Shown: positions 9,438 to 40,302 of the stretch, one piece after another
Numbering within the stretch: position 1 is the stretch's first letter
Layout: each line of letters opens with the position of its first letter
The notes under the pieces: generated by a model
What the model saw: the letters and a program-made list of their open reading frames with translations, nothing else
Database searches by the model: none
Told to the model about the DNA's origin: nothing
Source of the DNA: a virus
IMG/VR virus record: IMGVR_UViG_3300021170_000272
Location: 1-42,521 of that record
Direction: 5' to 3' (one strand)
Length of the DNA: 42,521 bases
Program-made: the position numbers and the translations under genes

Positions 9438-11129
9438 ATGGAAAACCCCTTTTCCGACCTCACGCCGCGCCCGGACTACCTGTCCGAAGATGGAACCCTC
9501 GACATCCTGAAGAAGTGGGAATGGAATCCCAAGCAGCTTGACCTCTACAACCTCTCCGTTCGCCAGATTTTAGCTGTAGGGGGCGTGCGATCCGGCAAGA
9601 CCGCTGGAGCGGAACAAGTCGGCATCCAGAAAATCCTGCTTCGCTACCCCAAGTCCAACGGCCTGATCCTCCGACGCACCTACAAGGAACTCAAGTCCGG
9701 CCCCATCGAAGACTTCCGCGAGCATGTGCCTCAGGAGCTTTACACCCTCAAGGAGTCCGACCTCACTGCCCATTTCGTTAACGGCTCGAAGCTCGTGTTC
9801 GGGCATTGCAAAACGGGCAAGGACCGCGACATCGAGCAGTACCTTGGCACTGCTTATCCCTTCATCCTCGTGGACGAATGCTCCCAGTTTTCCGCCGATG
9901 CTTGGACCACTTTGTTTTCCCGCAACACCGTCAATCCCGAATGCGAGCCCGACCGCACCCAGCCTTGCGGGGGCTGCGGCAATCCCCAGCAGTGCGGCTA
10001 CCCCTGCCTCCCTGATCCCATCTTCATGGGAGCCACCAACCCCTTCGGCCCCTTCTGGGACTACTACCACAGCCAGTTTGTTTTGAAAGAGCCTTACTTC
10101 CGGCCGGATGGCGCGAAGCGCGACCGCAACGGCAGGTATTGGATCGTGCAGGACGGCATCGATCCCCAACTTATCTTCGATCCCAACGATTACGGCTACG
10201 TGCACAGCACGGTTCTCGACAACCCACATGCCTTGAAGCGCGACCCCGGCTTGATCTCCCGCCTCAACATGCTTCCTAAAGGAAAGCGGGACAAATTTTT
10301 GCTCGGCTTGATGGACAAGGCGAGCGGCGTCTACTTCGAGTGCTGGGAGCAATCCACCGACGTCATCGACACCCGCCTCGATCCCGAGGCAATCATCTGG
10401 CAGCACTGGCAGCCCGTGTGGGGCGGCTGGGACTGGGCTATCGGCACGCACTGGAATACCTGCTACTTCTTCACCAAAGCGTTGGTCCGCAACTCCATCG
10501 GCGGGGAATACAGGCTCAAGACTATTTGCTTCCGGGAATACGTGACGCAGGGCAAGACCGACAGGGAGATGAGTGCTTGGATAGCGCAAACCCTGAAGTG
10601 GCCGGACACCGGGGAACTGATCCGCACCATCCATGCGATTTATTTTTCGCACGAAAAATTCGACCGCCAAGTCGGCGAGCACACTCCGGCCGACATGCTG
10701 AGCCAAGAGCTTATGGTCGTGGGCCTGCCCGGCGTGAGCCCCGCAGCCTCGAAGCCCGGCTCCCGCATTGCCCGTGCCTCGCTTATGTACCAGATGCTTG
10801 CCCACCGGGAACTCGTGATCCTCGACACCTGCACGGAGATCATCCGCGCTATTCCCAACCTCATGCGCAATCCCGACATTCTCGACGATGTTTTCAAGCC
10901 CAAGGGCGCGAACAAGGCTGACGACTGCTACGACGGATTTTCCTACGGCCTGTTCGGCTACTTCAATCCCGAGGAGAAGCCCGAGGAAATCAAGATGAGG
11001 GAAAAGCTTGCCTCGATGGACAGCTTCAACCGCCACCTTGAGATGTGGAAGCGGACCATGGACAGGAAAGCCGTGGACGAGATGCCGGAGCACCGGCCGT
11101 ATTGGCAGGACCGCAAAGAGGAGAAATAG
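9438..11129 (+). CDS. terL: Terminase large subunit (packaging ATPase/nuclease)
   Basis: A 563-residue DNA-packaging motor protein. The ATPase domain has a Walker A motif GGVRSGKT (residues 48-55), Walker B ILVDE (143-147) and motif III GATNP (198-202). The C-terminal RNase H-like nuclease part includes WGGWDWAIGT with Asp332, and a distal KADDCYDGFSYGL segment expected to supply further acidic residues. Five cysteines lie between Walker B and motif III (C169, C177, C180, C186, C190), which is unusual and may form a zinc-binding insertion. The start follows the shared GGAGACTCAGATG element. It leads the late, structural gene block and acts with the portal encoded after it. Confidence 0.95.
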   Translation: MENPFSDLTPRPDYLSEDGTLDILKKWEWNPKQLDLYNLSVRQILAVGGVRSGKTAGAEQVGIQKILLRYPKSNGLILRRTYKELKSGPIEDFREHVPQELYTLKESDLTAHFVNGSKLVFGHCKTGKDRDIEQYLGTAYPFILVDECSQFSADAWTTLFSRNTVNPECEPDRTQPCGGCGNPQQCGYPCLPDPIFMGATNPFGPFWDYYHSQFVLKEPYFRPDGAKRDRNGRYWIVQDGIDPQLIFDPNDYGYVHSTVLDNPHALKRDPGLISRLNMLPKGKRDKFLLGLMDKASGVYFECWEQSTDVIDTRLDPEAIIWQHWQPVWGGWDWAIGTHWNTCYFFTKALVRNSIGGEYRLKTICFREYVTQGKTDREMSAWIAQTLKWPDTGELIRTIHAIYFSHEKFDRQVGEHTPADMLSQELMVVGLPGVSPAASKPGSRIARASLMYQMLAHRELVILDTCTEIIRAIPNLMRNPDILDDVFKPKGANKADDCYDGFSYGLFGYFNPEEKPEEIKMREKLASMDSFNRHLEMWKRTMDRKAVDEMPEHRPYWQDRKEEK

Positions 11130-11566: not shown

Positions 11567-14173
11567 ATGGCAACCTACGCAGAAGACACACGGGGCAACG
11601 AAGAAGACACCCTTCACGATATTTCCGAAGAGCCCAACGAAAACGCGGAAACAGAGAACGACGAGGACGCCGAAGGCCAGCCCGAAGCCGAGGCTGAGGA
11701 CTACGTTGCGAAATACGAGCTAGGGTGCTACGCGCCGTGGGATTGGTCTGCGGAACAAATTTATTTGTCGGACGACCTTGAGGAAGATGTTCGCGGTGCC
11801 CTCGTAGGCTTGACACTGATCGCCGCCCGCAGCGACCAAGCAGCACGCAGGTTCGAAGTCGAGCAGGCATGGGAAGCGGAGATGTTCTTCCGTGGCTACC
11901 AGCACTTGCTCCCTCGCCGTGGCGGCGGCTTCCAGTTGCCGGGCGAAGACACTAAATGGGGGCCGATGGCGCAGCTTAACCGCCAAGCGGTCTACAACAC
12001 TAACATCTACTCGAAGACTGGCGACATCCTGATCTCCGCAATCTGCCGCGAGCTTCCGAAGGTCCAGTTCTTCCCCATCTGCCCGGACTCCAACCCCGAC
12101 GTCACCATGGCGGAGACGGCCAACAAATACAAATGGGTCTATTCGAAAAATAACAACCTCAAGGACATCCAGCGCGACATCGCCCACAAGTTTTGCACTC
12201 AGGACCGGGTAGTGCTTTACACCCGGCATGTCCTCGATGCCACGGAATACGGCTTTCAGGACGATCCGGAGCCCGCTTCCCCCGAAACCGCCGAGGCAAT
12301 GCCCGAGGATGACGCGAACCAAGTAGTCCAACGAATTTCCGAGTTGCTGGGAGGGGAAAAGAAAGAAGCCCGCCGGCCGAAGGGCATGGAGATCACGTCC
12401 GTGTTCGACAAGCTCGGCAGCAAGGTGCTGGTCAGCGCAAAGAACCAATCCAAAATGCCGTGGCTCCAGCTTTACGAAGAGGACGACTGTGCCTCGGCCC
12501 GTGCAAGCTTTCCGTTTATCAGCGAAAAAATCCGTCCCGGAGGCACGGGCACCGGGGAAGTCGAGCTTGACCGCATCGCCCGCATCAACACCGACCTAGC
12601 GTTGCAGGGAGCCTATGTAACGGGCGACTCCTACAACCGCGACGTGACGATCCAGCGCACATGGATGCGCCCCAAGTTTTTCTGGGACCAGAGCGTCAGG
12701 AGCGAGATCAGGGAGAAGCTGCTGGAACGGTTCCCCAAGGGCTGCCTCGTTGTCAGGGTCGGCCCGGAGTTCGCTTTCTGCCGCAACGAGTCCCTCGACG
12801 ACAAGGTGAAGGTATTGCACGCATTGCCCGGCAAGGGCCAGAACCGCAGGGCATTGCTGACGCCGTGCATCAGCGTGCAGAAGCGGCTCAACGACTGGAT
12901 GGACCTGATGGGCGACTTCTTCGTCCGCACGGTGCCCAAGCGTTTCTACGACCAGAACACATTCGCCGTCGAGAAGATGAAGGAAACCAACAACGTCCCC
13001 GGAGGCGCAATCCCGTTCATCCGCCGCCCCGGCACTCCCGTGAGCGAGCTTATCCATCTTGAGCCCACGCCTCAGGCGCAGCCGCAGATGGGGGAGTTCA
13101 TTAAGTGGTTCGAGTCCGACCTTAACAATGATTTGTCCGGTGCTCTCTCCACTATTTTCGGCGGAGCCACAGACATCAACACCGCGCAAGGCGCTGCGAT
13201 CCAGAGGGACCAAGCATTGGGACGTCTGGGCGTGCCTTGGAATGCGATTCAGGAAGGCTTTGCCGAATCTCACCGCCAAGCCGTGAAGGCAGCAGCAGAG
13301 GCACGCAAGCAGAACATCGACGAGATGGTTGACGGGCATGGCCGCATCACGATCCAAGTGGCGGACATGAACGGCAATGTTGCCTGCTACCCCGAATACG
13401 ACGCAAATTTTCCCGAGTCTTACAGCCAGCGTGAATCCCGCTTCTACGAACTGTGGAAGTCCGCTCCCGAGAACCCGCTTTCCATGGAGCTTCTCAAGAG
13501 CGCGAAGAACCGCAAGATTGCCAAGGATGCCCTGCGCTTCTCCGACCTAGAAATCGTGGGAGCCGCCGAATACGAGAAGCAGGAAGGCGAGTTCGAAATC
13601 CTGCTGAAGACCGGGCCCGTGCCCAATCCCGATGTCGTCAAAATCCAGACGCTCATCAAGCAGACAACCGATGGCATGGCTCAGGAAATTGCCACAGGTG
13701 CTCACAACCCGCAGGAAGTCCAGCAAGCCGCCCCGATGCTCGACCAACTGGAGCAGCATGCGGAATCCCTGCCTCAGGAAGTCAGCACCGTGCCCGTGGC
13801 TCAGGACAAGAGCGAAGACCACGTCATCGAAGCCCAAGCCTGCTACGACTGGATGAACAGCAGCGAAGGCCGCCGCTACAAGCACGGAAGCGAACAGGAG
13901 CGGGCCGCATACCAGAACGTCTACGTGCATTGGCAGGAGCACACCGCCATGGCGGAAAAGCTCGCCGACGATTCGCAGGCGCTCAAGAGCACCGGGGAAA
14001 GCATCTCCGTGCCTCTGGACAAAATGCCCCCGAACGTCGCAATTCAGGCGCTCGCCAAGATCGGCATCACCGCCACTCCGGAAGATTTCGAGCAGAAGGA
14101 CGAGGCGGACACCAAGAAGACCGTAACGGAGCGTACCGCCCCGCATGTAATCCGCAAGCTGACGAGGAGCTAA
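11567..14173 (+). CDS. Portal protein
   Basis: An 868-residue protein following the terminase, in the place and size range of large podovirus portals. It forms the dodecameric ring through which DNA enters and leaves the head. The N-terminal 60 residues are very acidic and probably disordered. The central region includes segments typical of portals (DILISAICRELPKVQFFP near residue 160, LNNDLSGALSTIFGGATDINTAQGAAIQRDQALGRL near 520-560, then a long helix). An acidic and Gln-rich C-terminal part (about 690-800) follows, as in portals with long barrel extensions. GAGGAACTGAATG marks the start. The call rests on gene order plus these segments. Confidence 0.8.
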   Translation: MATYAEDTRGNEEDTLHDISEEPNENAETENDEDAEGQPEAEAEDYVAKYELGCYAPWDWSAEQIYLSDDLEEDVRGALVGLTLIAARSDQAARRFEVEQAWEAEMFFRGYQHLLPRRGGGFQLPGEDTKWGPMAQLNRQAVYNTNIYSKTGDILISAICRELPKVQFFPICPDSNPDVTMAETANKYKWVYSKNNNLKDIQRDIAHKFCTQDRVVLYTRHVLDATEYGFQDDPEPASPETAEAMPEDDANQVVQRISELLGGEKKEARRPKGMEITSVFDKLGSKVLVSAKNQSKMPWLQLYEEDDCASARASFPFISEKIRPGGTGTGEVELDRIARINTDLALQGAYVTGDSYNRDVTIQRTWMRPKFFWDQSVRSEIREKLLERFPKGCLVVRVGPEFAFCRNESLDDKVKVLHALPGKGQNRRALLTPCISVQKRLNDWMDLMGDFFVRTVPKRFYDQNTFAVEKMKETNNVPGGAIPFIRRPGTPVSELIHLEPTPQAQPQMGEFIKWFESDLNNDLSGALSTIFGGATDINTAQGAAIQRDQALGRLGVPWNAIQEGFAESHRQAVKAAAEARKQNIDEMVDGHGRITIQVADMNGNVACYPEYDANFPESYSQRESRFYELWKSAPENPLSMELLKSAKNRKIAKDALRFSDLEIVGAAEYEKQEGEFEILLKTGPVPNPDVVKIQTLIKQTTDGMAQEIATGAHNPQEVQQAAPMLDQLEQHAESLPQEVSTVPVAQDKSEDHVIEAQACYDWMNSSEGRRYKHGSEQERAAYQNVYVHWQEHTAMAEKLADDSQALKSTGESISVPLDKMPPNVAIQALAKIGITATPEDFEQKDEADTKKTVTERTAPHVIRKLTRS

Positions 14174-14853: not shown

Positions 14854-16275
14854 ATGCCAGAAGACTTTTCCATGCTTGATCCGGATTCCGTTTTGTCCGC
14901 CGATCCCGAAGAACCCCTAGTAGAAAATACCGACGACCTCGATGCCGATGCTGGTGGTACGGATAACGAAGACGTGTCCCATGAAGACACCGATGCTGCG
15001 GATAAGCCTAAGGGCGACGACGTCGAAGGCAAAGAGGGCGATGACAAGTCCGACGATAAGTCGGATGACAAAGAGGGCGATAAAGAAGGCAAAGGCCGCA
15101 AGGGCGACGATGACATCGACCTTCGCAAGACCAGCAAAGAAATTTACAACGCCCTCACCAAGTTCCGCGACGCCTCCCCGGAGAACGCCCCGCTCGCCAA
15201 GGTATTGCGCCAAGCCATCGGCCATGACCTTGCCTATCAGGAATCCTACAAGACCCCGCAGGAAGCCCGCATTGCCCGTGCGCAGATGGACGCATTGGGA
15301 GGTCCGGAGGGCATCGCCAGCACTCAGGAAGTCCTTGCAGACATCGAAGCCACCGACGCAATGCTGGACTCCAGCGACGCGAAAGTGCTGGACAAGTTCG
15401 GCGAGAAGCACAAGGCAGGCATCGTCGGGCTTGCACCCCATTATCTTGAGAAGCTCAAGGGCTGGGACGAAAAAGCCTACAAGACCGCCATCCTGCCGCA
15501 CCTCGTTGACAATCTTGCCAGCGCAGGCTTCGAGGGCGTGCTCAGCGCATTGATCGACGCTGTAAAGGATGAAGGCAGCCCCGATGTGAAGACGATCAAG
15601 CAGATCGTCGGAAACCTCCAGTCATGGTTCGGCAACCAGAAACAACAGGCAGACGGAGTCCGCAACAGCCTCACTAACCCCAAATCTGCTGCATTGGACG
15701 ACCGGGAAAAGAAGCTCAACGAGCGCGACGAGCAGGCTTTCCACGGCGAATGGAAGCAGTCCGTGCGCGAGCACAGCAGCACTGCCATCTGGAAGGAAAT
15801 GCAGCCTTACGTCAAGAATTTCAACGACAACCAGAAGCGTGATTTCGCTCAGGGCGTGATCGACGAAATCCAGCGCAGGCTCAACGCCGACAAAGTTTAC
15901 AACAAGCAGAAGGATGCTTTGCTCAACTCCAAGACCCGCAGCAAGGAGCGCATCGTCGCTTTCCAGAATGCAAAGCTCGATTCCGTAGTCGCCGAGGCGG
16001 CGAAGACAATTTTCGCCAACCGCTATGGCGGCAAGGCTCCTGTGAAGTCCGCAGCAGCCGACAAGTCAGGCAAGGGCGCAGGCAAAGGCTCGGATGCCCC
16101 GGCAACAGGATTGGGCAGCATGAACAGCCCCATCTTCGTCAAGGACAAACCTGCCCGCAATGATCGTGATGCCACCAAAGACCCCGAGGCTCTGTATGAG
16201 ATCGCTGGCAAGGCTTTCATGAAAGCTGGCCCGTATAAGGGCAAGTGGGTCACATGGCGGGCACCCAAGAAGTAA
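14854..16275 (+). CDS. Scaffold-like protein (capsid assembly)
   Basis: A 473-residue protein placed between portal and capsid, where scaffolding proteins are encoded. The N-terminal 95 residues are extremely acidic and low in complexity (runs such as GDDKSDDKSDDKEGDKEGKG). The body is helical and charged (SKEIYNALTKFRDASPENAPLAKVL, LDDREKKLNERDEQAFHGEWKQSVREH, SKERIVAFQNAKLDSVVAEAA). The C-terminus is basic (KGKWVTWRAPKK), as in scaffolds that bind the coat protein. No protease motif seen. The shared GGAGACTCAGATG start element precedes it. The scaffold call is inferred from position and composition. Confidence 0.6.
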   Translation: MPEDFSMLDPDSVLSADPEEPLVENTDDLDADAGGTDNEDVSHEDTDAADKPKGDDVEGKEGDDKSDDKSDDKEGDKEGKGRKGDDDIDLRKTSKEIYNALTKFRDASPENAPLAKVLRQAIGHDLAYQESYKTPQEARIARAQMDALGGPEGIASTQEVLADIEATDAMLDSSDAKVLDKFGEKHKAGIVGLAPHYLEKLKGWDEKAYKTAILPHLVDNLASAGFEGVLSALIDAVKDEGSPDVKTIKQIVGNLQSWFGNQKQQADGVRNSLTNPKSAALDDREKKLNERDEQAFHGEWKQSVREHSSTAIWKEMQPYVKNFNDNQKRDFAQGVIDEIQRRLNADKVYNKQKDALLNSKTRSKERIVAFQNAKLDSVVAEAAKTIFANRYGGKAPVKSAAADKSGKGAGKGSDAPATGLGSMNSPIFVKDKPARNDRDATKDPEALYEIAGKAFMKAGPYKGKWVTWRAPKK

Positions 16276-16760: not shown

Positions 16761-16795
16761 CGAGATTCGACCGATAAATTTTGGAGACGCAGAAC

Positions 16796-18403
16796 ATGAA
16801 CGGCAAATTTCCGTCCTTCGCAAAGCGCATCAACCATGGCGCAGACTCACGTGAATCCATCCTAAAAGGCGTCAACATCCTCGCGGACCTCGTGGAATCC
16901 ACGCTCGGGCCGGGAGGCAGGTTCATCTGCATCCACCGCCCGATGTCCAAGCCATTCCTCACCAAGGACGGCGTGACAGTGGCACGGGAAGTGTTCCTAC
17001 AGGACGAGTTCGAGGACGCTGGAGCCCAAATGGTGAAAGACGTTGCGTCCAAAACCTGCAACGAGGCAGGCGACGGCACTACTACTGCCACCTTGCTCGC
17101 CCGCACTATCTATTCCGAAGGCTTGAAAGCCACAAGGGCCGGAGCCAACCCCGTGATCCTGAAAAAGGGCATGGATTTTGCTGTCTCGCACGCATTGGTC
17201 GCCCTGAAAAACCTATCCCACCAAGTCACCGACGAGGAAGTAGTCAAGATCGCCACGATCAGCGCAAACGGCGACGGGTTCATCGGCGGATTGGTCAGCA
17301 AGGCCGTGCTGAAGGTCGGCACTGACGGCGTCGTAGTAGTAGGCAAGTCCCATTCCTCGGAGACCAAGCTCGAAATGGTCGATGGCTGCCGATTCTGGCA
17401 AGGCTGGATCAACCCGTACTTCATCACCAACGCGGAGAGGCAGGAAGCCCTGTTGGACAACCCCTACATCTTGATTTTTGACAAGAAGCTGGTCGCTTTG
17501 CAGCCCATGCTTCCGTTTTTCGAGAAAATCGCCAAGCAAAAGCGGTCGGTCCTCATCATTGCGGAAAATATCGAGGGCGAGGCTCTCTCCATCCTTGTCA
17601 ACAACCGACAGGCGTTGCAAACCGTGCCCGTGAAGGCACCGGGATACGCCGTTGACCGCAGTACGCAGCTTGAAGACATTGCCATCCTAACGGGGGCGAC
17701 GGTAATCACCGATGCGTTGGGCTTGAGGCTCGAAGAGATCGGTTTTGAGCACCTCGGCAACGCCACGAGCGTCACTGTGGGCAAAGAGTTCACCACGATC
17801 ATCGAGGGCGCTGGCTCGCCCGCAAAAATCCAAGCCCGCATCTCCGAGCTTCGTTCCGCCGTGGACATGGAGCAGGACCAAGGGACCAAGGAGAAGCTTC
17901 AGGACAGGCTCAGCAAGATGAGCGGCGGTCTCGCCATCATCAGGGTGGGCGGTGCCTCGGAGCTTGAGGTAGAGGAACGCTGCTACCGGGTGGAAGACGC
18001 CATGCACGCTACCCGCGCCGCAATCGAGGAAGGAATCGTGCCGGGCGGGGGAGTTGCCCTGCTTAGGGTGGCACTCACGCTGGAACCCAAGGAATTGTGG
18101 GAAGGGAAGCACAAGGATTTCATGGCCGGATTGCGCATCGTGCAGGATGCCATGCTAATGCCCATCCAAAAAATTGCTTCTAATGCGGGATTTGATCCGC
18201 TGGAAGTGTTGTCCAAGGTTAGGTCTTTTACCGCCCACCCCAATTCAGGCTTCAATGCCCTAACCGGGGAATACGGCGATCTGAAGGATCAGGGCATCAT
18301 CGATCCTGCCAAGGTGGTCCGCAGTGCCTTGAGCAATGCAGAATCCATCGCATCCCTCATGCTGGTGACCGAAGGCATGATCGTGCATCCCATGGGCGAA
18401 TAA
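16796..18403 (+). CDS. groEL: GroEL-type chaperonin (phage-encoded Hsp60)
   Basis: A 535-residue group I chaperonin that folds proteins in an ATP-driven double ring. Family motifs are clear: TLGPGG, KDGVTVAREV, EAGDGTTTATLLAR (ATP and magnesium site, with the catalytic-type Asp of GDGTTT) and the C-terminal equatorial signature VEDAMHATRAAIEEGIVPGGGVALL. The C-terminal Gly-Gly-Met tail usual in bacterial GroEL is missing; the protein ends MIVHPMGE. GGAGAC lies 10 nt upstream of ATG 16796, so the longer TTG start at 16781 is rejected. It is encoded directly before the major capsid gene, with a GroES homologue just after, implying a dedicated capsid-folding machine. Confidence 0.95.
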   Translation: MNGKFPSFAKRINHGADSRESILKGVNILADLVESTLGPGGRFICIHRPMSKPFLTKDGVTVAREVFLQDEFEDAGAQMVKDVASKTCNEAGDGTTTATLLARTIYSEGLKATRAGANPVILKKGMDFAVSHALVALKNLSHQVTDEEVVKIATISANGDGFIGGLVSKAVLKVGTDGVVVVGKSHSSETKLEMVDGCRFWQGWINPYFITNAERQEALLDNPYILIFDKKLVALQPMLPFFEKIAKQKRSVLIIAENIEGEALSILVNNRQALQTVPVKAPGYAVDRSTQLEDIAILTGATVITDALGLRLEEIGFEHLGNATSVTVGKEFTTIIEGAGSPAKIQARISELRSAVDMEQDQGTKEKLQDRLSKMSGGLAIIRVGGASELEVEERCYRVEDAMHATRAAIEEGIVPGGGVALLRVALTLEPKELWEGKHKDFMAGLRIVQDAMLMPIQKIASNAGFDPLEVLSKVRSFTAHPNSGFNALTGEYGDLKDQGIIDPAKVVRSALSNAESIASLMLVTEGMIVHPMGE

Positions 18404-18593
18404 AAATTCCAACTACGTAGTGCCCTTAGTAGAAGCTGCCATAGGGTCGTCCGCAAATGACGATATAAACTAAGAACCCTCCAAAAAGCTTCCAACCTCA
18501 GCCCAAGGCATATCGGGCAAGCGACTCAGACCGACTCAGACGATCAGCGTCCGCATTTTGGTGGCTGAAATTCAATCTTTTGAGGTTACACCT
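18404..18593 (+). promoter_or_regulatory. Long leader of the major capsid gene with tandem GACTCAGAC repeats
   Basis: A 190 bp non-coding leader. It opens with words shared with the scaffold leader (CCAACTAC...TTAGTAGA), including the palindrome ACTACGTAGT. Near its end stand two exact tandem CGACTCAGAC copies (18522-18531 and 18532-18541) followed by GATCAG. The repeats share their core with the GGAGACTCAGAT element of other late genes and are spaced one helical turn apart, suggesting a binding site or a late promoter element. Confidence 0.5.
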
Positions 18594-19928
18594 ATGGCTG
18601 CATTGCTTGAAGCATCAGTCGAGGCTATCGAAGTCGAAGCGTTTGCGAAAGAAATTCCAGACCTTATCGGCCATTTCGAGACTGCCTACAATCTTTTCAA
18701 GGACAACGCAACAGTTGTTCCTATCTCTTACCAAACCCTTGCAGGCGGCACGTCTCGCGGCTCGTTCCGTGTTCCGTTCCGTGTGCAGGGAGGCGCACCG
18801 CCCGTTCAGGCTTCCGGCGACCGTTCCTCAATGGGACCGGGCTCCGGGTCGAACTGGCAGGGCTTCGTGCTCTCTCCGGTCTTCCTCTTCAACGTATGCG
18901 AAATCAGCTACCTTGCGAAGAAGGCTACCGAGGGCAAGAACCGTGCTCTGTTCTCCGTGCAGGCTGCGGAACTCAAGAACACCCTCAAGACCTTCCTTAA
19001 CGGCCTCGAAGGACAGTTCAACTCGGATGGCTCTGGCCAGATCGACCAGATTCCTTCGACGGCAACCGTCTCCTCTTCGTCCGGCTCCGGCGCACAGACC
19101 AGCTTTATCTCTGGTTTGAACACCGTCGCAGGGTTCGTTGACCAACAGGTCATCAGCGTGTTCCCGTCCATCGGCGGCACGACCCGTGGTACCGCGACCA
19201 TCTCCTACGTGGACGTGGTCACGCAGACCCTCTTCTTCTCCACCGTGCTTCCGAGCACGGGCGGAGCCACCGCAATCAACGACTATCTAATGGTCAATGG
19301 CTCCAGCGGTGCGGCGGGTTCTTCCATCATGGGCATCCGCGCATGGCATGTGAACGGCAACACCGGAACCTTGGCAGGCATCAACCGCGCCAACTTCCCC
19401 AGCCGTATCAGCACGCCGACCATCAACCTTAACGGCGGCGCAATAACCCCCGGCATCGGGCTTCGTGCTCAAGTGCTGTTGGGTCGTGCGCTCGGGCCGG
19501 ATGCGGACTCCATCAAGGAATCCGTGTGGTACGGCCCCGCTGAGCAGGCTTACGCTGTCGGACAGTTGTTCTTCAACGTGAACCAAGCTCTACAGCGTCC
19601 GGGCGACTCTAACGACAAGCCTCTGGACATGAGCCGCAAGATGTTCCAAGAGCAGTTCGCTGGCCGCAAATACCACACTTCGTGGACTGCGCAGCCCAAC
19701 CGTGTTGACCTCCTTCACCTGCCGTCTTGGTATCTCGGCGAGCTTGTCTCCCCCGAGCTATACAACTTCGGCGATGCTGGCACGGTCGTCCCGGTTCCTG
19801 ACACCAGCACCTCGACGGGCACGTATTACACCAGCTTCATGTTCGCCTACAATGCGAGCTTGAACTTGGCATGCAGCGCCCCCCGTTTGGGCCTCTACAT
19901 CGGATCGGCTGCTGTTCCGAGCGTCTAA
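18594..19928 (+). CDS. Major capsid protein
   Basis: A 444-residue protein in the canonical capsid position, probably of the HK97 fold and forming the shell. It contains an N-arm-like helix (MAALLEASVEAIEVEAFAKEIPDL), a Gly/Ser-rich loop region (ASGDRSSMGPGSGSNWQGF), many beta segments and a conserved-looking C-terminal part (SWYLGELVSPELYNFGDAG...APRLGLYIGS). ATG 18594 is preferred because GAGG lies 9 nt upstream; an in-frame GTG at 18558 lacks a binding site and would add 12 residues. A strong terminator follows, as expected for the most highly expressed virion gene. The call rests on context and size; no unique motif is visible. Confidence 0.8.
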   Translation: MAALLEASVEAIEVEAFAKEIPDLIGHFETAYNLFKDNATVVPISYQTLAGGTSRGSFRVPFRVQGGAPPVQASGDRSSMGPGSGSNWQGFVLSPVFLFNVCEISYLAKKATEGKNRALFSVQAAELKNTLKTFLNGLEGQFNSDGSGQIDQIPSTATVSSSSGSGAQTSFISGLNTVAGFVDQQVISVFPSIGGTTRGTATISYVDVVTQTLFFSTVLPSTGGATAINDYLMVNGSSGAAGSSIMGIRAWHVNGNTGTLAGINRANFPSRISTPTINLNGGAITPGIGLRAQVLLGRALGPDADSIKESVWYGPAEQAYAVGQLFFNVNQALQRPGDSNDKPLDMSRKMFQEQFAGRKYHTSWTAQPNRVDLLHLPSWYLGELVSPELYNFGDAGTVVPVPDTSTSTGTYYTSFMFAYNASLNLACSAPRLGLYIGSAAVPSV

Positions 19929-19951
19929 TCCAGCCCGATCAAAACCTAACC

Positions 19952-19991
19952 GCCCCGGCAACCCGCATGGCTGCCGGGGCTTTTTGTTTTT
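19952..19991 (+). terminator. Rho-independent terminator after the capsid gene
   Basis: GCCCCGGCA (19952-19960) pairs perfectly with TGCCGGGGC (19972-19980), with an 11 nt loop, followed by TTTTTGTTTTT. It is a textbook terminator on the plus strand and likely separates capsid transcription from the GroES gene. Confidence 0.9.
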
Positions 19992-20012
19992 GGACTATGG
20001 CATTCATTCACA

Positions 20013-20037
20013 GGGGCTCATGCCCCCGGAGACTCAG
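20013..20037 (+). promoter_or_regulatory. Leader hairpin of the GroES gene
   Basis: GGGGC-TCAT-GCCCC (20013-20026) lies one base upstream of GGAG (20028-20031) in the shared GGAGACTCAGATG start element, the same hairpin-then-motif order as before the scaffold gene. Confidence 0.5.
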
Positions 20038-20406
20038 ATGAACTCAGATACCGTCTTTATTGACCGCCGCACGTCCGTTGCGGAGGCATCCCCAGAACCA
20101 GACCAGAAGCAATACGAGCCTTTCCAGCCTCTCTTCGACCGCGTCGTCGTGCGCAGGATCAAGGAAGCTCCCAAGGACCACAGCTTCGCCATTCCCGAAA
20201 AATACCGCCAGCAAACCAACAAGGGCGAAGTCGTCTACGTGGGCACAGGCATGTATCTCGGCGGGGCGTGGCACCCCATTCCCCTGAAGCCCGGCGACAT
20301 CGTGTTGTTCGGCGAGTATGGGGCGGAGAAGTTTTTCATGGACGGCGAGGAGCTTGAGAGCATCTTCGTCGGCGACATCCGCGCCGTCAAGCGGCTGAAG
20401 GCCTAG
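20038..20406 (+). CDS. groES: GroES-type co-chaperonin (phage-encoded Hsp10)
   Basis: A 122-residue co-chaperonin that caps the GroEL ring. The core matches the Hsp10 family: FQPLFDRVVVRRI at about 28-40 (cf. LHDRV-type openings), a polar mobile-loop region, TNKGEVVYVGTG, LKPGDIVLFGEYGAEKF and the final EELESIFVGDIRAV. It is longer than typical bacterial GroES (about 97) because of a 25-residue N-terminal extension. The mobile loop (KDHSFAIPEKYRQQ) lacks the usual Gly-Gly-hydrophobic tripeptide, suggesting altered GroEL contact matched to the phage GroEL. The start is set by the GGAGACTCAGATG element; the longer upstream reading is rejected. Confidence 0.9.
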   Translation: MNSDTVFIDRRTSVAEASPEPDQKQYEPFQPLFDRVVVRRIKEAPKDHSFAIPEKYRQQTNKGEVVYVGTGMYLGGAWHPIPLKPGDIVLFGEYGAEKFFMDGEELESIFVGDIRAVKRLKA

Positions 20407-20408
20407 CC

Positions 20409-21125
20409 GTGAGTTGGCATCTGACATCGGTCGAACGCAGGCGTTGCCCCGAGTTGTATCAGGAGCAGCTTACCCGTGCTGGCGGCTTGAACCGCAACCG
20501 TGAGCCCAACTTCAAATTCGCTTGGGGGCAGACAGAGACATTCCGGGCCGGAGGCACATGGGCGGGCGACGACTTTCCCAGCTACACAGGCTACAGGGAT
20601 TTGCTTCTGGGCATGGGCGATCCCAGTTGGATGATCCTCCAGTGGCACCGCCCGGAGGAATACGGCACTCCGGAGTCCTACTACGTCAACAATCATGACG
20701 ACCAAAGCGGCTTGCAGACCATGGGCGAGTATCCGTATCGAGGCAGATACGAAATTCTGTTCAACCTGATCCACCGGGAGATGGCGAACGGGGCGTTGAA
20801 AATTTATCGCATGGAACTCAACCCCATGCTGATCGACCGGATCATTCCGTTGGTCGTGAGCGCAAAGGAAATCTCCATCGAGAAGGACATGGCCGCCCGC
20901 ATCGCCAACCGCGAACGCGAGGAGCAGGAATCGGAAAACAAGATCGAGGCGATTGTGAAGAACGCCCATCCCGCCTTCGATGGCGGAAAAATAAGTTTTG
21001 CTCGTCAGGGCGTGAGGAACTCCCTGATCGACAAGAAAATGCTTGAGCTTGCCCGTAGCTGGTCCCAGACGATGGGCGGCATGAAGAAGTCAGGCACAGG
21101 GATGATCCAAGGGGGCAGTTTTTAA
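20409..21125 (+). CDS. Hypothetical virion-region protein
   Basis: A 238-residue protein with GTG start at 20409, 3 nt after the GroES stop. AAGG lies 7 nt upstream. The N-terminal half is rich in aromatic residues and glycine (FKFAWGQTETFRAGGTWAGDDFPSYTGYRD, DPSWMILQWHRPEEYGTPESYYV). The C-terminal half is helical and charged (IEKDMAARIANREREEQESENKIEAIV). No family recognised. Its place between capsid and neck genes suggests a head-completion or minor capsid role. Confidence 0.5.
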   Translation: MSWHLTSVERRRCPELYQEQLTRAGGLNRNREPNFKFAWGQTETFRAGGTWAGDDFPSYTGYRDLLLGMGDPSWMILQWHRPEEYGTPESYYVNNHDDQSGLQTMGEYPYRGRYEILFNLIHREMANGALKIYRMELNPMLIDRIIPLVVSAKEISIEKDMAARIANREREEQESENKIEAIVKNAHPAFDGGKISFARQGVRNSLIDKKMLELARSWSQTMGGMKKSGTGMIQGGSF

Positions 21126-21157: not shown

Positions 21158-22051
21158 ATGTCAGACGCAACATCGAAGGTAACCAATCCTTCAAACCACG
21201 TCCGTAGCCGTGCTATGGCGGAAAACGAAAACTCTCAGTTGGTCGATTACAACCTTGACCCGCAGATGATTCGCCAGCCGGATTATTTCGTTTACATTTT
21301 TTCGGTGAGCGAGCGCGACTTCGATGTCAGCCGTCCGGGCTTGAACATCAGCAAGGTGACGCTGAAAGGTTGCCCGGAAGCAAAATTCGACAAGGCGGCT
21401 TATTCGCTTTGCATGAAGGTGCCCCATCCCTATCCCCTGCCTTACGTGGACCAGACCAACGGCCAAATCAGGCTGGAGACGGCATACGGCGAGCGCGCCG
21501 CAATGGACATCCTCAACCCCAACCAGAAGACCCTGACGATGGATGCGTATATCGATCCGAAGGTCAACATCGGAGTGGGGGACGACCTGATCGCACGCGG
21601 GCTGTTCTTGGTGAAGGACGAGCAATGCACGTTCCGCACCGAAGAGCAGGCACTCCCCGATGGCAAGAAGCACAAGGTCAAGCTTCCGGTCCCGCCCGCT
21701 GCCGCAGTAGCGAAGGCAGTCGAGCGCAAGGAAAAGTATTACAACGATTTGATCGACAAGGCTACAGCACTTGAGCACAGCAATCCCGCGGAACTGCGGG
21801 ATAGCATCACGCAGAACCCCGACTACCATCTTGCGGCCGAATATTTCGACCTTGAGACCAGTTGGCACAAGAAGCATTTGAAGAAGGCAGCCCCGGTGGT
21901 ATGCCGGAACTGCGGCTTGGAAAAGACCCGTGGAGCAGCGTTCCACTTCCTGCCCAACGGCAGGCCGTGCGTAGAGGATTGGGATGCGGCAATCGAATCG
22001 GGCGCAGTGACGGAAGCAGAGCGTCCGGCGAAAAAGGGCGGCAAGGCTTAA
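21158..22051 (+). CDS. Hypothetical virion-region protein with C-terminal zinc knuckle
   Basis: A 297-residue protein. GGAGACTCAGAT lies directly before it, but here the ATG is shifted 2 nt downstream of the usual position. N-terminal two thirds are beta-rich and proline-rich (DYFVYIFSVSERDFDVSRPG, KVPHPYPLPYVDQTNGQIRLETAYGERAAMDIL). Near the C-terminus a VCRNCGLEK...C pattern suggests a zinc knuckle. No family recognised. Expressed with the head/neck block; a role in head completion is inferred only from position. Confidence 0.5.
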   Translation: MSDATSKVTNPSNHVRSRAMAENENSQLVDYNLDPQMIRQPDYFVYIFSVSERDFDVSRPGLNISKVTLKGCPEAKFDKAAYSLCMKVPHPYPLPYVDQTNGQIRLETAYGERAAMDILNPNQKTLTMDAYIDPKVNIGVGDDLIARGLFLVKDEQCTFRTEEQALPDGKKHKVKLPVPPAAAVAKAVERKEKYYNDLIDKATALEHSNPAELRDSITQNPDYHLAAEYFDLETSWHKKHLKKAAPVVCRNCGLEKTRGAAFHFLPNGRPCVEDWDAAIESGAVTEAERPAKKGGKA

Positions 22052-37850: not shown

Positions 37851-37900
37851 TTGCACCGCTGGGAATAGTTGCTATCATCCCCGATAGCAACTATTCCCAG
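37851..37900 (+). promoter_or_regulatory. Promoter overlapped by a perfect 18 bp inverted repeat (operator)
   Basis: CTGGGAATAGTTGCTATC (37859-37876) and its exact reverse complement (37883-37900) are separated by ATCCCC. A sigma-70-like promoter, TTGCAC (37851-37856) and TATCAT (37873-37878) with 16 bp between, is covered at its -10 by the repeat, so a bound dimer would block transcription of the methyltransferase and endonuclease. The methyltransferase's own ribbon-helix-helix domain is the obvious candidate for the binder. No T tract follows, so it is not a terminator. Confidence 0.8.
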
Positions 37901-37916
37901 TGGAGCGTGTTCCGGA

Positions 37917-39128
37917 ATGCCGAAACAACTGCTCGTTCGCAACGTCCCCGAGAACGTGCACCAGTGGATCGACAGCCAGCGCCAACAGCACCAGATGTCC
38001 CAGCAGGAGTTCGTGCTTTCCGTCCTGCAAAAGGCATCGACGCCAGACCAGATACTCCCGCTTCCCTTCGAACAGATTCGCCGAGCCGATCCGGCTCCGG
38101 CCGAACTGCCTTTCACTTTCATCGATCTCTTTGCGGGGATCGGGGGCTTCCGGATCGCGCTCGAAGGAATCGGCGGCAACTGCGCGTTCTCGTCCGAGTG
38201 GGACAAATACAGCCAGAAGACCTACAAGGCGTGGTTCGGCGACATTCCGCAGGGCGACATCCGCAAGATCAAGCCAGCGGAAATTCCGGACCACGACATA
38301 CTGGCGGCAGGCTTTCCCTGCCAGCCGTTCTCCATCGCCGGGGTCTCGAAGAAGAAGAGCCTCGGCCGTGCGCATGGGTTCAAATGCGCCACGCAGGGCA
38401 CGCTGTTCTTCAACATAGCCTCCATCCTCGAAGCGAAGCGGCCGCCCGTGGCATTGCTTGAGAACGTGAAAAACTTAAAGGGCCATGACAAGGGCAGGAC
38501 GTGGGAGACGATCAAGGAAACTCTCGAAGACCTCGGCTATGTGGTCTTCCACCGGATCATCGACGCAGCGCCGTGGGTTCCCCAACATCGTGAGCGGGTC
38601 TACATCGTGTGCTTCGACAAGCGGGTGTTCGGCGAGGCTCCGCCGTTCCGTTTTCCCGAGCGTCCCAAGACAGCGCCCAAGGTCCGGGACATACTGGAGC
38701 CCGAGCCTGACAGCCGCTACACGCTCTCCTCGCATCTGTGGAATTACTTGGTCGAATACGCGAAGAAGCACAAGGAGGCCGGCAACGGATTCGGCTACGG
38801 CTTGGCCGATCTCGACGGCGTCAGCAGGACGCTGAGCGCCCGCTACTTCAAGGACGGCTCGGAGATTCTCATCCCGCAGCCAAGGAAGAGCCCCCGCCGC
38901 CTGACCCCGAGGGAATGCGCCCGGCTCATGGGCTTCGACGATGCCCTGCCAATCGTCGTGAGCGACACGCAGGCATACAGGCAGTTCGGCAACGCCGTGG
39001 TGCCCAAAGTCGCCACTGCGGTAGCAATGGAGATCATCAAGGTATTCCGCTGGCAGCTTGTCCAGAAGCCCAACGGCTGCCTGCTCAAGTCGGCTCCAAA
39101 GCCTCAAGCGTTCGCCGCAGCGGGATAA
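37917..39128 (+). CDS. DNA cytosine-5 methyltransferase (EcoRII/Dcm-like) with N-terminal ribbon-helix-helix domain
   Basis: A 403-residue C5-methyltransferase that methylates the inner or outer cytosine of its site using S-adenosylmethionine. Catalytic motifs are complete: I FIDLFAGIGG (68-77), IV GFPCQPFS with Cys135, VI LLENVKN (181-187), VIII QHRERVYIV and X FGNAVVPKV. The target-recognition region (HKEAGNGFGYGL, SRTLSARYFKDGSEILIP) looks like that of Dcm and M.EcoRII, predicting CCWGG. Residues 1-40 (MPKQLLVRNVPENVHQWIDSQRQQ...EFVLSVLQKA) read as a ribbon-helix-helix DNA-binding domain, an uncommon fusion. ATG 37917 follows GGAG at 37902-37905. The endonuclease starts 4 bp later. Confidence 0.92.
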   Translation: MPKQLLVRNVPENVHQWIDSQRQQHQMSQQEFVLSVLQKASTPDQILPLPFEQIRRADPAPAELPFTFIDLFAGIGGFRIALEGIGGNCAFSSEWDKYSQKTYKAWFGDIPQGDIRKIKPAEIPDHDILAAGFPCQPFSIAGVSKKKSLGRAHGFKCATQGTLFFNIASILEAKRPPVALLENVKNLKGHDKGRTWETIKETLEDLGYVVFHRIIDAAPWVPQHRERVYIVCFDKRVFGEAPPFRFPERPKTAPKVRDILEPEPDSRYTLSSHLWNYLVEYAKKHKEAGNGFGYGLADLDGVSRTLSARYFKDGSEILIPQPRKSPRRLTPRECARLMGFDDALPIVVSDTQAYRQFGNAVVPKVATAVAMEIIKVFRWQLVQKPNGCLLKSAPKPQAFAAAG

Positions 39129-39132
39129 GCCC

Positions 39133-40302
39133 ATGCCCTCGCCTATCTGCGAACTCGCAATTGCGGAAGCCCTGCGCGTCGGCAACGCGCTCCTGAAGTT
39201 CATCTCGCCCAACGATGCCGGGATCACCGGGGGGCACCAATGCGGCTTCTACCTGCCGAAGGCTGTCAGGGAAATGTATGCCCCGTTCGGCCCGGACAAG
39301 GGTCGGAACTACGAATCCCAAGTCGAAGTTCGTTGGCAGGAAGACCAGCTAGTCACAAATTCCCGCGTGAAGTGGTATGGCAAGGGCACCCGCAGCGAGT
39401 ATCGGCTGACCCGGTTCGGCAAAGGCTTCCCCTTCCTCACGCCCGAATCGGTCGGCGACATGCTTGTCCTCATTCCGTATGACCACCAAAGGTTCAAAGC
39501 CTATGTGCTCGACAATGACGAGGACATCGAGGAAATCCAAGCAGCATTGGGCGTCGATGTCACCGGGTTCTGGGGAGCCTACGAGGGAGGCAAGCCTCGG
39601 ATCGAAACCGAAAGCGAATGCTTGGAGCGGCGGTTCCGCGAGTTCATCAAGGACTTAGATGATTTTCCGACCGGGCTCGCATTCTCCGAGGAGACCGTCG
39701 AGGCCCTGAAGGAATGCGTCGAGCAGTTCGAGAAGCTGAACGCGGACAAGACCATCGTCAGGTGCGTGGATACGGAGTACAAGCTGTTTCGGCTGGCGGA
39801 GCGCCAGATTTGCCAGCCTGAAATCCTGAGGGTGTTCAAGGACGTGGACGACTTCCTCAAAACAGCGTCGAGCATCATGAACCGACGCAAGTCCCGTGCC
39901 GGGCGGTCGCTCGAAAACCACTTCGAGTATTTGCTGAAGCGGGCGGAGATTCCATATGCTGTCCGTCCGCCCGAGGTTGACGGAGAACCGGACATCGTCA
40001 TACCGAGCGTGGACGCATACAACGACGCACGCTATCCGACGAACAAGCTCTTCATGGTCGGCGTAAAGAGGACATGCAAAGACCGATGGCGTCAGGTGCT
40101 CAAGGAGGCGAAGCGGGTCAAGCAAAAGCACATCATGACGATCCAGCAGGGCATCTCGAAGAAGCAGTTGAACGACATGAAGGGCGACGGGGTGCAGCTA
40201 ATCGTCCCCCTTGAGTTCCACAAGCAGTATCCGCCAAACTCGGACATGAAGCTGCTTCAAGTAGGAGAGTTCGTCGATCTCGTGAGGAAGCGGCTGGCGT
40301 GA
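39133..40302 (+). CDS. EcoRII-type restriction endonuclease
   Basis: A 389-residue type II enzyme (EcoRII itself is about 400) that cleaves unmethylated CCWGG. The N-terminal half (to about 170; YRLTRFGKGFPFLTPESVGDMLVLIP) fits the effector DNA-binding domain of EcoRII. The C-terminal half carries the catalytic PD-(E/D)xK core: RSLENHFEYLL (Glu261), GEPDIVIP (Asp287), and VGVKRTCKDRWRQVLKEAKR (Lys312), the last being the most characteristic segment of this family. It lies between the methyltransferase and the Vsr gene, forming one operon. Two-site activation is known for EcoRII and expected here, but unproven. Reading frame and catalytic residues look intact. Confidence 0.9.
   Translation: MPSPICELAIAEALRVGNALLKFISPNDAGITGGHQCGFYLPKAVREMYAPFGPDKGRNYESQVEVRWQEDQLVTNSRVKWYGKGTRSEYRLTRFGKGFPFLTPESVGDMLVLIPYDHQRFKAYVLDNDEDIEEIQAALGVDVTGFWGAYEGGKPRIETESECLERRFREFIKDLDDFPTGLAFSEETVEALKECVEQFEKLNADKTIVRCVDTEYKLFRLAERQICQPEILRVFKDVDDFLKTASSIMNRRKSRAGRSLENHFEYLLKRAEIPYAVRPPEVDGEPDIVIPSVDAYNDARYPTNKLFMVGVKRTCKDRWRQVLKEAKRVKQKHIMTIQQGISKKQLNDMKGDGVQLIVPLEFHKQYPPNSDMKLLQVGEFVDLVRKRLA

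Follow-up and report, generated by a model that had tools for sequence, protein, structure and literature searches.

The viral record IMGVR_UViG_3300021170_000272 from IMG/VR, a single record of 42,521 bases analysed here over its whole length (hereafter the window), carries in its plus-strand head module a gene for the barrel chaperonin GroEL and a gene for its lid GroES, one on each side of the gene taken as that of the major capsid protein. This order (GroEL, capsid, GroES), pointed out in a preliminary description made from the sequence, was borne out by family matches and by the predicted GroES fold. We consider it probable that the two proteins are a phage-encoded group I chaperonin and its lid, most likely folding the phage's own capsid protein, with GroES present in the phage group before GroEL and the pair now mainly self-compatible. 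In the proposed history, an ancestral phage would have capped host GroEL with its own GroES specifically for capsid folding, in the manner of T4 with gp31; some lineages would later have gained a GroEL, apparently of Acidobacteria-like ancestry; and once the phage had its own barrel, the mobile loop of the lid and the lid-binding face of the barrel would have changed together.

The GroEL open reading frame (ORF; 16781-18403) matched Pfam Cpn60_TCP1 at 4.2e-73 and, over nearly its full length, PHROG 5725 (chaperonin groEL) at 1.9e-138. The matches cover residues 34-535 (Pfam), 14-535 (PHROG) and 14-535 (PDB GroEL, 5.2e-157), as in a full-length three-domain Cpn60. ATG 16796 is the likely start because GGAG precedes it, which gives a protein of 535 amino acids. 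The protein ends in ...GMIVHPMGE, and the preliminary description was correct that it is full-length and has no GGM tail. A GGM-rich C-terminal tail is common among group I chaperonins and not universal. It is also absent from the GroELs of the two related records that carry one, L002 and L058, two Vibrio phage GroELs likewise end right after the equatorial domain, and the tails of Acidobacteria GroELs are mostly GGGMY-like, not GGM repeats; the missing tail is thus weak evidence for a private chaperonin. At the 17 positions that we take to be ATP-binding or catalytic (30-33, 51, 52, 87-91, 398, 414-416, 479 and 495; Salmonella/E. coli numbering, used for GroEL throughout), the window, L002 and L058 are all as in Salmonella GroEL, with 3.7-5.6 changes expected. 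Because all 17 are unchanged, ATPase activity is expected for the three phage GroELs, and the intact ATP site together with the intact GroES fold suggests ATP-driven encapsulation. Between the window and L002, the nonsynonymous and synonymous divergences (dN/dS) were 0.40/1.78 for GroEL, 0.21/1.93 for the capsid gene and 0.53/1.35 for GroES; the three reading frames are unbroken, and these values indicate purifying selection on each. An ORF that reads as an HNH endonuclease lies between the GroEL and capsid genes of L002 (4713-5168, plus strand), where the window has a 190-base gap.

For GroES, residues 47-135 of ORF 19984-20406 matched Pfam Cpn10 at 1.1e-13. ATG 20038 is a likelier start than TTG 19984 because the TTG falls in the T-tract of a terminator-like hairpin and GGAG precedes the ATG. 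The GC-rich hairpin (stem 19952-19960/19972-19980, T-tract 19981-19991, plus strand) is listed by the terminator scanner on the minus strand only, its loop on the plus strand being longer than the scanner's limit. With this start, the 18 further residues that the longest ORF would add are probably not made, and the N-terminal extension noted in the preliminary description is present at a length of about 27 residues, not 44. The model of the 122-residue form had a mean predicted local distance difference test score (pLDDT) of 85.6, and its 30 best PDB fold matches were all GroES/Cpn10 chains by title; it matched bacterial GroES (Foldseek E 3.9e-8) more closely than it did gp31 (1g31, E 0.042). 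The core was modeled confidently, and the extension with low confidence (block means of 55 and 65 over the first 20 residues). Two relatives, L055 and L056, have no such extension. GroEL-less relatives (L057, L066, L072, L080, L088 and others) have a long one that starts with a motif like GGDxLARGxxSAQF, and many of them add a later VxDRR motif, of which the window retains only FIDRR; the extension could be a docking tag. The GroES of L058 (7952-8290, plus strand) is about 11 residues shorter than that of the window in the roof region, recalling T4 gp31, which has lost the roof relative to GroES.

The capsid protein had no match above noise in Pfam, PHROG or PDB sequences. Its model, built from a 15-row alignment, was of poor confidence (mean pLDDT 47.3), and its 20 best PDB fold matches all carry titles of HK97-type shells, 17 of them from phages, 2 from a capsid-forming island and 1 from a gene transfer agent (best E 7.9e-4). 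Because of these fold matches together with the gene order, the product of 18594-19928 is taken as a major capsid protein with a putative HK97 fold. The preliminary description had called it the capsid gene outright; the assignment stands, on synteny and a low-confidence fold in place of a family match. The start at ATG 18594 agrees with the relatives. In many of these (L006, L007/L072, L014/L075 and others), the capsid gene is split into two or more pieces, and in some, endonuclease-like ORFs (HNH or LAGLIDADG by reading) lie between or just behind the pieces. These splits look like introns or inteins; no Rfam intron family was found in the six split-capsid sources tried.

The distribution of the two genes argues for a GroES-first history. 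A terminase scan yielded 38 viral loci and a capsid scan 69, and GroEL was sought in L002 together with 21 of the 38 terminase-scan loci, making 22 records, and in 50 of the 69 capsid-scan loci; the loci left out of these counts were mostly short or repeats of records already counted. GroEL was present in 1 of the 22 and 1 of the 50 records, which with the window makes 3 of 73, and GroES in 7 of the 22 and 28 of the 50, or at least 36 of 73 with the window. The GroES counts are minimum values, since many of the records without a match stop short of the locus, and one GroES (G033, locus L065) was missed by the Pfam model and seen by tblastn. All seven records of at least 100 kb (G011, G040, G042, G045, G058, G061 and G063) have GroES and none has GroEL. 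Since GroES is far more widespread than GroEL in this phage group, we infer that the capsid-linked GroES is the older gene and GroEL a rare later addition; for much of its evolution GroES had no phage GroEL beside it and presumably worked on that of the host. In the window and in L002 the GroEL gene precedes the capsid gene, and in L058 it follows groES; in all three carriers it adjoins the capsid-GroES block, at two different places. The capsid tree pairs the window with L002 as sisters (100/100) and places L058 elsewhere, with L053-L056 (93/93). GroEL thus occurs in two capsid lineages, through two gains or through one gain and losses. The private chaperonin of the preliminary description is retained as a dedicated phage pair in which lid and barrel both differ where they should touch, and not as a unit co-evolved from the outset, given the counts of the two genes. 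Searches of viral contigs for GroEL relatives gave none by a single-protein scan and eight by an alignment scan, six of them distant (25-30% identity). At the DNA level, the only phage matches were to GroEL genes in records labelled as Salmonella.

For the ancestry of the phage GroELs, duplicates (L001, L041, L052, L121 and L129) and short sequences (L127 and L128) were removed from the set, and L123-L126 were left out of the trees and site counts as too distant. The 34 Acidobacteria rows comprised four loci (L134-L137) from the metagenome-assembled genomes (MAGs) in which capsid relatives occur and the 30 best matches from 149 genomes searched; because they were picked as best matches, this sample leans toward the window. 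The tree grouped the window, L002 and L058 (99/98), with the window and L002 together (100/99), and placed the three next to Acidobacteria rows. The tree program warned of long branches, and the three GroELs are long-branched, so that long-branch attraction is a risk. When rows were left out of the tree, the nearest cellular rows were still Acidobacteria, and the end branches became very long. The best identity to an Acidobacteria GroEL was about 51-52% for the window, 46% for L002 and 53% for L058, far under the median of 76% among the sampled Acidobacteria; a recent transfer from the host, named in the preliminary description among its refutations, was thereby ruled out, and the divergence from host-type GroEL is old. 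The phage GroEL is apparently of Acidobacteria-like ancestry, although this origin is uncertain. A single clade of all ten phage GroELs (the three here and seven others) was rejected by the approximately unbiased (AU) test (p 0.003). Some records labelled as phage were counted as bacterial: Acinetobacter phage MD-2021a (CAKLQH020000021.1), which is a bacterial chromosome with glpD, pckG and acrB as neighbours of groSL; a Salmonella contig; and an Enterococcus-labelled and a faecal record, the latter two by sequence only.

Changes were found on both faces of the lid contact. In GroEL, residues L234, L237 and V264 are described as GroES contacts (PMC3514286). The corresponding residues are L, F and N in the window, where a two-residue gap follows position 265 in helix I; L, L and F in L002, which has a seven-residue insertion in helix H; and L, L and V in L058, which has K at 263. 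Y199, found in 41/41 bacteria, is W in all three carriers. On the lid side, 38 bacterial GroES rows were compared, with the phage rows L051, L122 and L173 set aside and the query rows L049 and L050 uncounted. Most bacterial GroES read GGIII in the mobile loop; the window reads HSFAI, HS replacing GG and the tripeptide FAI being kept, and the altered loop of the preliminary description is therefore real. Loop position 24 is G in 35 of the 38 bacteria, in 22/22 long-loop phage relatives, in which no GroEL was seen and which have an insertion before the loop tip. L053 and L054 have G there too, as does L056 by alignment; L054, in which no GroEL was seen, has the loop GGIAI and would be expected to cap host-type GroEL. 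The GroEL carriers have S (window), K (L002) and T (L058) at this position, and their loops have the hydrophobic tripeptides FAI, LGL and LVV. A loop change that co-varies with the presence of GroEL is thus suggested by the alignment. Position 25 is F, L and L in the three carriers; F or L there was tried as a mark of GroEL carriers and rejected, GroEL-less relatives also having F, L, I or M. The three bacterial exceptions to G24 are Acidobacteria (L144, L155 and L158) with a GSL loop, one residue shorter, paired with GroEL Y264 (V264Y). They form one lineage in the GroEL tree, so the GSL loop and Y264 count as one event, and they give an independent hint that lid site and barrel site may change together, possibly in a cellular case.

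The ring interface has also changed. Position 464 is V or I in 41/41 bacteria, and E, E and D in the window, L002 and L058; position 452 is R or K in 40/41, and Q, M and C. New residues, defined as those never seen in the 41 bacteria, occupy three of seven ring-interface positions in the window (1.5 expected, P 0.18), six in L002 (P 0.003) and four in L058 (P 0.06), P values here and below being uncorrected for the number of tests. The inter-ring positions 452/461/105/434 read Q, D, K, K in the window, M, N, D, T in L002 and C, D, E, A in L058. Because position 434 is not conserved in bacteria (G in 22, E in 8, D in 5 and others in 6 of the 41), loss of the K105-E434/D435 pair is weak evidence for a single ring. 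The four SR1 positions were changed beyond expectation in other phage GroELs, L172, L175 and L122 (P 0.001, 0.02 and 0.04); two of the four were changed in L051 (P 0.20), and L171, L173 and L174 were unchanged.

Several observations weigh against the history that we favour. The apical changes lie within what divergence predicts (3 of 8 positions in the window, 1.6 expected, P 0.21; P 0.20 in L002 and 0.29 in L058). G24, lost in all three GroEL carriers, is also replaced by T, K and T in L055, L066 and L078, partial records in which no GroEL was seen, which leaves the matching oddities of the preliminary description only partly matched. An Acidobacteria clade without the phages was not rejected (p 0.375), and other phyla are thinly sampled. 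The capsid protein is proposed as client from gene position and the parallel with T4. The apical result, together with the window's interface count, is what an ordinary fast-evolving double-ring GroEL/GroES would give, in which the loop and interface changes are drift and host partners still work, and bacterial GroEL is described as taking co-chaperonins from any source (PMC3514286). We regard this account as possible but rather doubtful, since drift fits poorly with an acidic residue at 464 and the loss of R/K at 452 in all three carriers, at positions kept in 41/41 and 40/41 bacteria, and with the six changed ring positions of L002.

The wide occurrence of GroES without GroEL would also fit a phage GroES that still caps host GroEL, the phage GroEL being a lid-independent holdase like the chaperonins of EL, OBP and AR9, which are reported to work without a co-chaperonin (PMC7185714, PMC9598537); the two-residue gap in helix I of the window, adjoining a GroES contact, points the same way. 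This is unlikely, however, because identity to the best Acidobacteria match is 46-53% for the three GroELs, compared with ~22% for EL to GroEL, most groove residues are kept, and the GroES loops of the carriers keep their hydrophobic tripeptide. A general booster of proteostasis in the infected cell, as opposed to a capsid-folding device, appears quite improbable. In its favour, the capsid protein is a proposed client, and other phage GroELs are not part of the head module (that of Immutovirus, for example, is close to DNA polymerase). However, GroES adjoins the capsid gene in most relatives that reach that far and in Acidobacteria MAG contigs, and GroEL stands beside the capsid-GroES block in all three carriers. 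This phage group displays both states, relatives with GroES only, presumably on host GroEL, and three members with their own barrel, and so offers a natural before-and-after view of lid-barrel co-adaptation.

A more speculative reading, which we put forward tentatively and think doubtful, is that the phage GroEL occurs naturally as a single ring and yet does its folding beneath a GroES lid. The ring contacts would be gone (acidic 464, no R/K at 452) and the loop would be weakened to match: with G24 lost, a loop one or two residues shorter than in bacteria and F or L at 25, the lid could leave without a second ring. Wild-type GroES is described as held too tightly by the single-ring mutant GroEL-SR, with which the GroES variants I25F and I25L, among others, apparently function (PMC5575113). 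Two points argue against the idea: the interface count of the window itself does not reach significance, and F or L at 25 is also found in GroEL-less relatives. If it were true, phage evolution would have repeated the selection made in E. coli (GroEL-SR with GroES I25F/I25L) and, separately, that of mitochondria; L172, L175 and L122, with the same four positions changed, would be further cases; and to the mitochondrial and engineered single-ring chaperonins that use a lid, phages would add a third kind.

T4 gp31 is reported to cap host GroEL for the folding of the capsid protein gp23, and RB49 CocO is likewise a phage co-chaperonin that serves the major capsid protein while the host supplies the GroEL barrel (PMC3012670). 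The GroEL-less relatives probably work in the same way, by analogy with gp31; unlike T4, the window also encodes the barrel. Co-chaperonins of the gp31 type fold a capsid protein for which host GroES does not suffice, a role that synteny suggests for the GroES of the window. Immutovirus (Flavobacterium phages) and Bacteroides phages likewise have both groES and groEL in the phage genome, but adjacent to each other (annotated as an adjacent pair in Immutovirus, where it is not part of the head module; in a Bacteroides phage, a GroES-like gene immediately precedes GroEL), whereas those of the window flank the capsid gene. The GroEL of Vibrio phage Va1 resembles that of the window in lying in a head/tail gene cluster and in having a short tail and changed ring-interface residues, but it sits between the tail sheath and tail tube genes. 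EL gp146, OBP gp246 and AR9 gp228 are also phage-encoded chaperonins, for which single rings formed or were found; the EL chaperonin is ~22-25% similar to GroEL (PMC7185714, PMC9598537), whereas the window encodes a clear group I GroEL with GroES. In mitochondrial Hsp60-Hsp10 and in the engineered GroEL-SR with weakened GroES, a lost R452-E461 contact goes with a changed lid loop, a combination that the three carriers may share; a single ring is proposed for the phage protein on the speculative reading above. Phages with both groEL and groES have been mentioned in general terms (PMC7185714, citing Marine et al. 2017), and a metaproteome study of prairie soil reported viral GroELs, for which it proposed a different ancestry (PMC8390657). 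A literature search found no description of this phage group, of the capsid-flanking arrangement or of a GroES-first history; phage GroES-GroEL pairs themselves are known.

Table 1. Features of the head module and neighbouring genes in the window.
Feature	Coordinates	Strand	Basis or remarks
Terminase large subunit	9438..11129	+	Pfam Terminase_3 1.7e-05; PHROG 979 4.2e-24
868-aa head-module protein	11567..14173	+	Probable portal, by position only
473-aa protein	14854..16275	+	Scaffold-like by position and composition; same place in relatives
GroEL, 535 aa	16796..18403	+	Group I chaperonin; ATP site intact, helix I and ring-interface residues altered
Major capsid protein, 444 aa	18594..19928	+	HK97 fold by low-confidence model; synteny
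Intrinsic-terminator-like hairpin and T-tract	19952..19991	+	Separates capsid gene from groES; direct reading
GroES, 122 aa	20038..20406	+	~27-residue N-terminal extension; mobile loop HSFAI
orf238, 238-aa conserved neighbour of groES	20409..21125	+	Synteny in relatives
orf297, 297-aa conserved neighbour	21158..22051	+	Synteny in relatives

The window is a fragment of a longer phage genome, as are most of its relatives, which reach 100-110 kb (Table 1 lists the features of the head module). The record of L002 is 45.7 kb long; its match starts inside the probable portal gene and keeps the order scaffold, GroEL, capsid and GroES, with identities of 42, 55, 75 and 51%, respectively. The probable portal had no family match in Pfam or PHROG; it is 38-52% identical in relatives and keeps its place after the terminase. 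The N-terminal third of the scaffold-like protein is acidic and lysine-rich. The order capsid, GroES, orf238, orf297 was found in most relatives that reach that far and in three Acidobacteria MAG contigs. All four capsid relatives in genome contigs lie in Acidobacteria MAGs, so the host of the window phage, which is from soil, is probably an acidobacterium, MAG binning being the weak point; a GroES-like gene adjoins the capsid gene in three of the four, followed by the same genes, and the fourth contig ends too early. The window has no tRNA genes and no Rfam families; a tRNA gene is present in the relative L006 (11848-11922, plus strand). Elsewhere in the window, two overlapping plus-strand genes make up a complete restriction-modification pair of the EcoRII-like kind, encoding a C5 DNA methylase (37869-39128; Pfam DNA_methylase 9.9e-84) and an EcoRII-type restriction endonuclease (39058-40302; EcoRII-C 6.3e-53, EcoRII-N 3.9e-21).

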